The notes beneath the pieces were generated by a model. The model was not told the DNA's origin, did no database searches, and saw only the letters and a list, made by a program, of their open reading frames with translations. A stretch of DNA of 64,000 nucleotides from Trichothermofontia sichuanensis B231 (GTDB lineage: Bacteria > Cyanobacteriota > Cyanobacteriia > B231). Shown here in pieces: positions 11,518 to 14,259 of this stretch. The stretch covers positions 498,501-562,500 of the forward strand of contig NZ_CP110848.1 of assembly GCF_026240635.1 (NCBI RefSeq). Direction: 5' to 3'. Numbering within the stretch: position 1 is the stretch's first letter; every line of letters begins with the position of its first letter. A program made the position numbers and the translations under genes.

Positions 11518-13038
11518 ATGCTGCTTACAGGTAACCGGATGCCTCTGCCACCCTCACGCTCGCCCGTGGTTAGCCTGCCGCCATTTGCTCGTAGTGACCG
11601 ATTTCAATGGTTGGGGGCTGGGGTGCGGCGATCGCTGCCACGGTTCGGGTGTTGGGTGCTGAGTGGGCTGTGCCTGAGCTTGACGGCGTGCGCACGAGTG
11701 ACTTCGCCGGTAGAGGTGATCCCACCCCTGCCCCAAGATCCCCAAATACAAGCCTATTTTAACCATGCGGCCAGTGCCACCTATACGGATCCCTACCGTC
11801 AGCAGCAGCGGTTGGGCGATGACCTAGAGCAAATCATGGTGGCCACGATCGCCGCTGCCCATAGCCGGGTAGATGTAGCCGTGCAGGAATTGCGTCTCCC
11901 CTCGATAGCTGCGGCCCTCGTCGATCGCCACCGAGCTGGGGTCCAAGTGCGGGTGATTTTGGAAAACACCTATAGCCATCCCTGGAGTGAACTCACACCA
12001 GCGGCAGTGGCCAGCCTGGACGAGCGGGAACGTAACCGCTACCGCGAATTTTTCACCCTAGTAGACCAAAACCGGGATGGCCAACTTAGCCCCGCCGAAA
12101 TAGCTGAACGGGATACCCTGATCATGCTGCGTCAGGGGGGAATTCCAGTGATCGACGATACTGCCGACGGTTCCCAAGGGAGTGGCCTGATGCACCACAA
12201 ATTCATTATTGTGGATGGTCAAAAGGTCATTGTCACCTCCGCCAATTTCACCATGAGTGATATCCACGGGGACTTCCAGTCACCCGAAAGTCGGGGTAAT
12301 GCCAACAACTTACTGCTGATCAGTAGCCCCCAACTGGCTACTCTCTTCACCCAGGAATTTGACCTTATGTGGGGGGATGGCCCTGGCGGTAAACCCGATA
12401 GCAAATTTGGGGTACAAAAGCCTCCACGACCCGTGCAAACCATTACTGTTGGCACAGCCCGTCTGAGTGTCAAGTTTTCCCCCACGGGCCGCAAAACCCC
12501 CTGGACCGCCAGTACCAATGGCTTGATTGCCGAAACCCTCACCACAGCGCGGCAGCACATTGATCTCGCTCTGTTCGTCTTTTCCGATCAGGCCCTGGCT
12601 AATACCCTTGCCCGCCAGCGGGGCCGTGGCGTGACCATTCGCGCTTTGATCGATCCAGGGTTTGCCTTCCGTTCCTACAGTGAAGGTTTGGATATGTTGG
12701 GCTTGGCTTTAGCGGAAAAGTGTAAATACGAGTCCGGCAATCGGCCCTGGTCACCCGCGATCACAACCGTCGGCGTCCCCCAATTAGCCCCAGGGGATCT
12801 CTTGCACCACAAGTTCGCCGTCTTAGATGGCCAAACCGTTATCACAGGCTCCCATAATTGGAGTGAAGCGGCCAATCAGCAAAATGATGAAACCCTGCTG
12901 GTTGTCAAAAGTCCAATTGTTGCCGCCCATTACCAACGGGAATTCGATCGCCTCTACCAAAACGCTGCCCTAGGTGCCCCTGCTAGCTTCCAGGCCAAGC
13001 TGAGAGAACAACAGCAACGTTGCCGATCGGGGCGTTAG
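11518..13038 (+). CDS. PLD-like lipoprotein with an internal EF-hand calcium loop
   Basis: 506 residues from the ATG at 11518. Two full HKD motifs, HHKFIIVD (His226, Lys228, Asp233) and HHKFAVLD (His430, Lys432, Asp437), each followed by a Ser/Asn-containing strand, make it a two-domain PLD-superfamily enzyme (phosphodiesterase, nuclease or phospholipase; substrate unknown). Before the first HKD motif, residues 183-194 read DQNRDGQLSPAE, a textbook EF-hand loop with Asp1, Asn3, Asp5, Gly6, Leu8 and Glu12. A lipobox (SLTAC, Cys58) follows a hydrophobic stretch, so the protein is likely exported and lipid-anchored. The GTG at 11623, preceded by a G-rich stretch, would give a standard 23-residue signal peptide and may be the true start. 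The 3' end overlaps psbV2 by 4 bases. Confidence 0.85.
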   Translation: MLLTGNRMPLPPSRSPVVSLPPFARSDRFQWLGAGVRRSLPRFGCWVLSGLCLSLTACARVTSPVEVIPPLPQDPQIQAYFNHAASATYTDPYRQQQRLGDDLEQIMVATIAAAHSRVDVAVQELRLPSIAAALVDRHRAGVQVRVILENTYSHPWSELTPAAVASLDERERNRYREFFTLVDQNRDGQLSPAEIAERDTLIMLRQGGIPVIDDTADGSQGSGLMHHKFIIVDGQKVIVTSANFTMSDIHGDFQSPESRGNANNLLLISSPQLATLFTQEFDLMWGDGPGGKPDSKFGVQKPPRPVQTITVGTARLSVKFSPTGRKTPWTASTNGLIAETLTTARQHIDLALFVFSDQALANTLARQRGRGVTIRALIDPGFAFRSYSEGLDMLGLALAEKCKYESGNRPWSPAITTVGVPQLAPGDLLHHKFAVLDGQTVITGSHNWSEAANQQNDETLLVVKSPIVAAHYQREFDRLYQNAALGAPASFQAKLREQQQRCRSGR

Positions 13039-13553
13039 CGATCGACAGAGCGAGCCTCTTCGCCCCAGAGGGGAGCAACCTGGGCCGCCCGTAAAATAAA
13101 GGCCGCCAGTTGTTCCATCTGTGTGGGCGAGAGCCACTGCTCGGATACCTGCCGACAAATCAACTCAACGTCCGTGCCATCATAGCTCATCGGTTCCCGC
13201 GAGAAGGCCACCAGACTACTGATATTATCGCGGGGGGGCGTTGCGCCGCGCAGAGCCTCCAGTGATAGGGAAATCGGCGGATTGGGTCGTGTGGTCCCGC
13301 CCGGATGGCAGAGAATGCAGTGTTCCTTAAACAGAGCTTTCCCCTGCGCCAGATCCGCCGCAGTAAAGGCTTTGGTCTCACCAGCCTGGTTATAGGGTAG
13401 GTCAACCGTATCCGTAACCTTCAAGTATTTTTTGATGTACAGGTCATCCACCGCGAAGGCTGACGGGCTGGCAATCGTCCAACTGATACAAACCAACATA
13501 ATCACTAGGCAAAGTTGCCGTATGCTCCCCGTCCAAACACACTGACGTTGCAT
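13035..13553 (-). CDS. psbV2: PsbV2-type cytochrome c
   Basis: 172 residues with a signal peptide (cleavage probably near SAFA-VDD, residue 34), so lumenal or periplasmic. One heme motif CILCH (Cys79, Cys82, His83). Over its length it aligns with PsbV, 214 bp upstream (both have the ATPPRxNI segment), but where PsbV has its second axial ligand His (EIH) this protein has Cys133 (LIC). The PsbV2 crystal structure from Thermosynechococcus is known to have His/Cys heme coordination, and that cytochrome also lies next to psbV, which supports the name. Its function is unsettled: low-abundance, low-potential electron carrier. It is probably co-transcribed with psbV. Confidence 0.88.
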   Translation of the reverse strand: MQRQCVWTGSIRQLCLVIMLVCISWTIASPSAFAVDDLYIKKYLKVTDTVDLPYNQAGETKAFTAADLAQGKALFKEHCILCHPGGTTRPNPPISLSLEALRGATPPRDNISSLVAFSREPMSYDGTDVELICRQVSEQWLSPTQMEQLAAFILRAAQVAPLWGEEARSVDR

Positions 13554-13684
13554 GGATATTCCCTTTCTTTATGAGCGCCAATTCCAGCTAAGATAAAAAA
13601 TTTGGTGAGAACAGGAATGCTCTCACCCCAGGAGCTTCAACGCGGTGTTGAGTTCCGTCAAATCCACAATTAAAAGCAATACCG

Positions 13685-13699
13685 AACTGGTAACCAGTT
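13685..13699. repeat. Short palindrome in the psbV-psbV2 gap
   Basis: AACTGGT-A-ACCAGTT, a perfect 7-bp inverted repeat with a 1-base centre. It could be an operator or a weak processing hairpin between psbV and psbV2. No T run follows, so it is not a typical terminator. Confidence 0.4.
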
Positions 13700-13767
13700 A
13701 ATATCAGGCTTCAAGGCAGGCAGGATGCCTACCCCGCAGTTGCAAGCCTAAATTGAGGGGACAAGCC

Positions 13768-14259
13768 TTAGCGATAGGCTTTGCCGCCCCCCCAAGCCTC
13801 ACCCACAATCTTGGGCTGGATCAGAATATGGCCCGCGATCGCGACTAAATCGTCCTCACTCAGGTTCCGCATTTCTGGGAAAATATCACGGCTGCGAACA
13901 CTGGGGTGAATCTCCCAAATTTCCGTTTCACCATCGAAGGTGGTCGGATTTTTCAAGAAGTCTACCAGCCCCTCAATATTGTTACGGGGTGGGGTTGCCA
14001 GCGATAGGGATTTTTCATCCAGATTAATGTTGGGGTCGGTTTTGGTGCCACCCGTGAGATGACATTGACCACAGGCATTGTTGAACAGTAACTTGCCTTC
14101 TTTTACTTGCTTGAGACTCAGCGTGATCGTATCCCCCTTGTCGTTGAGGGGAACTGTCCGGGTCGCTTCGTCGAGTTCAGCCGCAGCCGCCGTACCTACA
14201 AACAGTTGTAAGGTCAGGCACACTGTGACTACAGCCAGCCAAATGAATCTCCTCAGCAT
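13768..14259 (-). CDS. psbV: Photosystem II cytochrome c-550
   Basis: 163 residues. A signal peptide of about 26 residues ends AAA-AELDE, giving a mature protein of 137 residues, the normal size. The heme motif is CGQCH (Cys63, Cys66, His67) and the second axial His118 lies in EIHPSVRS; in mature numbering these are His41 and His92, as in known PsbV. It is an extrinsic lumenal subunit that stabilises the oxygen-evolving manganese cluster and the need for calcium and chloride. Downstream lies psbV2 on the same strand. The roughly 290 bp upstream, shared with the end of accD on the same strand, should hold its promoter, but I do not see a clear consensus. Confidence 0.97.
   Translation of the reverse strand: MLRRFIWLAVVTVCLTLQLFVGTAAAAELDEATRTVPLNDKGDTITLSLKQVKEGKLLFNNACGQCHLTGGTKTDPNINLDEKSLSLATPPRNNIEGLVDFLKNPTTFDGETEIWEIHPSVRSRDIFPEMRNLSEDDLVAIAGHILIQPKIVGEAWGGGKAYR

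Follow-up and report, generated by a model that had tools for sequence, protein, structure and literature searches.

A conserved predicted EF-hand calcium loop in an exported two-HKD protein of cyanobacteria, very probably the ComA/ComEA orthologue

The window analysed here is a stretch of 64,000 nucleotides from Trichothermofontia sichuanensis B231, within which one forward-strand gene encodes a 506-aa product with two PLDc_2 domains (Pfam, 1.2e-44). Both HxKxxxxD motifs of the PLD superfamily are intact in this protein, and the presence of the lipobox LTAC identifies it as a predicted bacterial lipoprotein. The gene and the features of its product are located as follows:

11518..13038, + strand: gene for an exported two-HKD PLD-superfamily protein, 506 aa, probable ComA/ComEA orthologue (ORF and profile matches)
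11680..11691, + strand: lipobox LTAC, residues 55-58, with cysteine 58 predicted to be lipidated (sequence)
11839..12372, + strand: PLDc_2 domain 1, which houses the EF-hand (profile match; genome coordinates 510339-510872)
12022..12135, + strand: EF-hand helix-loop-helix (residues 169-206), whose exit helix continues into alpha-2 of the PLD fold (AlphaFold2)
12064..12099, + strand: EF-hand calcium loop DQNRDGQLSPAE, residues 183-194, predicted Ca2+ site (PS00018 and conservation)
12193..12216, + strand: HKD motif 1, H226, K228 and D233 (invariant in 51 orthologues; entropy 0 in 135)
12529..12954, + strand: PLDc_2 domain 2, Nuc/mitochondrial-PLD-like (profile matches)
12721..12723, + strand: cysteine 402 (conserved in 135/135)
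12805..12828, + strand: HKD motif 2, H430, K432 and D437 (invariant across orthologues)
13021-13023, + strand: cysteine 502 (conserved in 132/135)

The initial annotation had described an exported lipoprotein with two HKD motifs and an EF-hand loop at residues 183-194, placed ahead of an HKD motif in the first domain and preceded by a helix. Each of these elements was recovered: the lipobox and the H226/K228/D233 and H430/K432/D437 triads are in place, DQNRDGQLSPAE occupies exactly the named residues and fits PROSITE PS00018, within the first PLDc_2 domain the loop follows the strand at 143-148 and precedes HKD1, and AlphaFold2 predicts a helix at 169-182. By a crude rule, 70 of the 135 orthologues that we aligned are lipoproteins and another 56 appear to be anchored by a transmembrane segment or signal peptide, which suggests that an export or anchor signal is common to the whole family. 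A disulfide between C402 and C502 in the exported protein is possible, although this is a guess. The frame of psbV2, which with psbV (cytochrome c-550) forms a tandem on the opposite strand (window 13035-14259, -), overlaps the end of the gene by 4 bases. The window neighbours (sensor kinases, psbV2, psbV and accD) were considered as a guide to function and rejected, as none could be linked to the gene and their arrangement is not conserved.

DQNRDGQLSPAE is the sole PS00018 match in the 25,810 residues of the 110 window ORFs that have 100 or more codons, and shuffling the protein produced such a match in 19 of 20,000 shuffles. The Pfam EF-hand models match the window protein at E = 0.015-0.08, under their curated cut-offs (15.2 bits against a cut-off of 25.4), which a lone short motif seldom reaches; automatic annotation would therefore miss the EF-hand in this protein. 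Among 51 orthologues, EF-hand_5 matched 29 at E-values up to 0.1 (best 2.7e-5). No further PS00018 match, and hence no second EF-hand of this pattern, was seen in any of the 135 orthologous proteins. Pairing with a second EF-hand is usual but not universal, and lone EF-hands are known elsewhere.

The AlphaFold2 model of the window protein, built with 51 sequences, has a mean pLDDT of 87 and places the loop between the helix at 169-182 and helices at 192-198 and 200-206, with a local pLDDT of 93-98. The two flanking helices by which the EF-hand was to be recognised are thus predicted, as a helix-loop-helix. In the model, the EF-hand appears as an insertion at the start of the helix that follows strand 2 in other PLD proteins, before HKD1. 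Since this beta2-alpha2 segment leads to HKD1, the topology suggests that the loop lies near the active site.

Of 59 relatives sampled from the class, 55 have a single orthologue. In the 135 aligned orthologues, the loop ligands, whose loss from orthologues had been named as evidence against an EF-hand, are almost completely kept: position X is Asp in 134/135, Y is Asn or Asp in 135/135, Z is Asp or Asn in 135/135 and -Z is Glu in 134/135, with a full PS00018 fit in 111/135. The entropy of the ligand positions is 0.06-0.74 bits, against 2.3-3.0 for the non-ligand loop positions and a protein mean of 1.31. Low ligand entropy amid variable neighbours is the pattern expected under selection for metal coordination. 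Because of this conservation the loop cannot be put down to chance, and a chance match was rejected as its origin. The exception is a Trichodesmium MAG (L135) with a degenerate loop in which X and -Z are both lost. Broken copies of the gene also occur, one with a split frame (L183) and one with an N-terminal truncation (L196). Judged on sequence, the EF-hand is a real and conserved feature of an exported, membrane-anchored protein of nearly all cyanobacteria, and, as so many orthologues fit PS00018, protein databases may already flag it.

Two groups of genomes have dispensed with the loop while keeping the HKD core intact. Six genomes of family f34 lack about 36 residues spanning the EF-hand, and four genomes of family f2 (genera g78 and g86) lack the loop alone. 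In a tree computed without the insert residues, they fall into two clades with support of 0.97 and 0.99, both nested in loop-bearing cyanobacteria. Automated scoring also gave L196 and L191 as loop-less, but the first is a truncated gene and the second has Ser at position Z of its loop, and neither was taken as a loss. The AlphaFold2 model of a loop-less protein has the same core (mean pLDDT 89). The loop is also absent from the sister class and from a Vibrio relative, so that in a search that was thin outside the phylum no EF-hand was seen in PLD lipoproteins of these two groups. The simplest history would be that the photosynthetic class gained the loop once, at its base, and that at least two losses followed. 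Because the loop-less clades retain the HKD core, the family in general does not depend on Ca2+ for catalysis; with the predicted core also unchanged in the loop-less protein that was modelled, Ca2+ was ruled out as a catalytic metal.

The closest non-cyanobacterial relative found was WP_043011803.1 of a Vibrio coralliilyticus plasmid (L202:3929-5380), with 36% identity. The replicons that carry this relative are large plasmids. A phage or plasmid origin of the gene was considered and rejected; a single weak phage match was seen. Two strong matches to viral contigs (L204 and L205) are loop-bearing cyanobacterial sequences, 59-63% identical to the window protein, and are likely to be host contamination or a prophage edge.

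The best relatives by sequence are NucT, DrmC and mitochondrial PLD/Zucchini, and the second HKD half shares with NucT, Zucchini and mitochondrial PLD the signature HHKF...TGSHNWS...NDE. Membership of NucT or of DISARM DrmC was ruled out, since the NCBIfam scores (70.9 of 297 bits for NucT, 72.4 of 133 bits for DrmC) are far under the equivalog cut-offs, and these proteins are relatives only. In a fold search, the first matches were a bacterial phospholipase D (7e0m, best E-value) and the PLD3/PLD4 exonucleases. On balance, the PLD half looks more like a nuclease than a phospholipase.

Several lines of evidence make it very probable that the window protein is orthologous to ComA/ComEA of cyanobacteria (Slr0197, All3087), an identity drawn from gene neighbourhood, C-terminal domain and comEC co-occurrence. 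A divergent NifS-type cysteine desulfurase gene lies upstream in 60 of the 74 loci having enough upstream sequence, although this adjacency is not conserved at the window locus itself. We take CyanoBase numbering and strand letters to imply the same divergent arrangement for all3087/alr3088, and the shared neighbour thus supports the orthology. All3087 of Anabaena is the orthologue of Slr0197 (PMC3976300), and Alr3088 is a cysteine desulfurase (PMC8300815). A C-terminal extension of the helix-hairpin-helix type, for example VNLNTASLQEIESLPGVGPTLAQGIIQAR, is found in 77/135 orthologues and is missing from the other 58, the window protein among them. HHH_3 matched 15 of 51 orthologues (best 8e-21), and the C-terminal part of one orthologue (L136) matched the NCBIfam comEA model TIGR01259 at 4e-14, as well as TIGR00426.

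The presence of the gene is also tied to comEC, which was detected in all 29 genomes that carry the gene and in 2 of the 21 that do not (Fisher 7e-12, or 3e-4 once family f2 is excluded). These p-values, from a comparison of comEC alone, are inflated by shared descent and by genome reduction, a partial confounder. Outside f2, the gene has been lost in at least three families (f14, f30 and f38), and one of the two comEC-bearing genomes without it (G199) holds an N-terminal remnant (G199:C55:54947-55096). The gene is absent from small Prochlorococcus-like genomes, in agreement with the report that most Prochlorococcus are without comA (PMC5101192). Slr0197 is needed for natural transformation (PMC7690421), as is ComEA in S. 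elongatus (PMC7125226), and an endonuclease character of ComA was proposed by Yura et al. 1999, as relayed in PMC7690421. The protein would thus already be named in model strains, while the EF-hand in it is apparently new: within the partial coverage of our literature search, the EF-hand went unmentioned.

The window strain itself may not be transformable, as its ComA orthologue is without the helix-hairpin-helix and the comEC of its genome, though present, is split by an insertion sequence (G000:C1 about 1734736-1738131; L233 1236-4632). The insertion is IS5/IS1031-like, with inverted repeats matching at 15/16 positions, a TTA target duplication and a transposase in two overlapping frames.

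Because of the helix-hairpin-helix and the link to comEC, a DNA-related role is indicated, and we consider the protein a putative extracytoplasmic nuclease of the DNA-uptake pathway, possibly the one that makes the single strand; it may instead serve in scavenging, or as a DNA receptor whose nuclease activity is weak. The account that we favour, and regard as probable, is that of an anchored HKD nuclease for transformation, orthologous to ComA/ComEA, in which the Ca2+ of the EF-hand is mainly structural. The membrane-anchored, extracytoplasmic PLD-superfamily nuclease would take part in processing DNA for natural transformation, its two HKD motifs forming one active site that would cleave DNA without a catalytic metal, like other HKD nucleases. 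The EF-hand would bind one Ca2+ after the protein leaves the low-calcium cytosol, and the bound ion would lock the beta2-alpha2 segment beside the HKD motif in its folded form. Ca2+ would thus act mainly as a structural stabiliser after export, rather than as a catalytic ion or a dynamic sensor. We judge this role the most likely because the site lies beyond the cytosol, where Ca2+ is plentiful, because the lone EF-hands known from exported bacterial enzymes such as Slt35/MltB are structural, and because the site is evolutionarily dispensable. A caution that Ca2+ may be structural had accompanied the first description of the loop, which did not recognise the probable ComA/ComEA identity of the protein. 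This caution has become the better-supported reading, since entire clades lack the loop through deletion but retain the catalytic core.

A more active role for the ion is unlikely. Were the EF-hand a switch, Ca2+ would turn the nuclease or its DNA handling on or off across the natural Ca2+ range, and environmental Ca2+ would gate DNA uptake or the breakdown of extracellular DNA. The position of the loop in the segment that leads to HKD1 in the model would suit this, as would ligands conserved almost as strongly as the catalytic residues. HKD nucleases, moreover, need no catalytic metal, as is established for Nuc, BfiI and Zucchini, which would leave a bound Ca2+ free to regulate. However, the Ca2+ level of the periplasm usually suffices to fill an EF-hand, lone EF-hands of the Slt35/MltB type are structural, and two clades have lost the loop. 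It is similarly doubtful that Ca2+ gates the entry or breakdown of foreign DNA through an EF-hand switch restricting enzyme activity to the space outside the cytosol or to environmental Ca2+ above a threshold, in which case the loop-less lineages would have lost this control. Still less likely is a latch for safe export, in which the Ca2+-free enzyme would stay unfolded or inactive in the cytosol, sparing the cell's own nucleic acid, and Ca2+ would complete its folding after export. An export or anchor signal in the whole family and an almost universal EF-hand are consistent with such a latch, but Sec-exported proteins are kept unfolded anyway, and the Vibrio relative and both loop-less clades manage without the EF-hand.

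The remaining alternatives question the DNA or the metal itself. We think it very unlikely that the protein acts on lipids as a phosphodiesterase in the cell envelope, with no tie to DNA uptake: its lipoprotein location and the annotation of the top fold match, 7e0m, as a phospholipase D would fit, whereas the sequence matches favour NucT, DrmC and mitochondrial PLD, and ComEA-type DNA-binding domains in 77/135 orthologues together with comEC co-occurrence point to DNA. A chance match, or a dead relic unable to bind anything, is hardly credible as an explanation of the loop, even though the window protein falls under the Pfam cut-offs and the loop is degenerate in one Trichodesmium; nearly invariant ligands among variable neighbours across the 135 orthologues and the predicted helix-loop-helix argue against it.

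Only for a few transformable bacteria is the nuclease known that converts incoming dsDNA to ssDNA, and in reviews this step is described as poorly understood in cyanobacteria. The present analysis offers a probable enzyme, with an intact two-HKD site phylum-wide and an almost universal predicted Ca2+ site beside it. Both the enzyme and a role for Ca2+ can now be tested directly in the usual laboratory strains, with the loop-less clades as natural controls.

Compared with known systems, the protein is most like ComA/ComEA (Slr0197, All3087), with which the family shares the divergent desulfurase neighbour, the combination of anchor, nuclease and helix-hairpin-helix in many orthologues, the tie to comEC and the absence from small Prochlorococcus-like genomes, whereas the helix-hairpin-helix is gone from the window orthologue. 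The HKD motifs and the second-half signature are also found in NucT, Nuc and Zucchini/mitochondrial PLD, but these have one HKD per chain and act as dimers, unlike the window protein with its two HKD motifs in one chain, EF-hand and export anchor. The lysosomal exonucleases PLD3/PLD4 likewise consist of a single chain with two HKD motifs, membrane-anchored and outside the cytosol, and gave a significant fold match, yet are only ~16% identical to the window protein. The Vibrio protein shares the two-HKD layout, a signal peptide and a weak C-terminal helix-hairpin-helix match, but not the EF-hand. For the calcium site, the lytic transglycosylase Slt35/MltB offers a single EF-hand, with stabilising Ca2+, in an exported lipoprotein enzyme, although its fold and substrate are unrelated. 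A relation to CSE or CcbP was ruled out, as these are different proteins. CSE (Asr1131), described in PMC7065334 as the sole Ca2+ sensor known in Anabaena, is also a cyanobacterial EF-hand protein, but it is small and has two EF-hands (PMC7065334), whereas the window protein carries one EF-hand in an exported enzyme.
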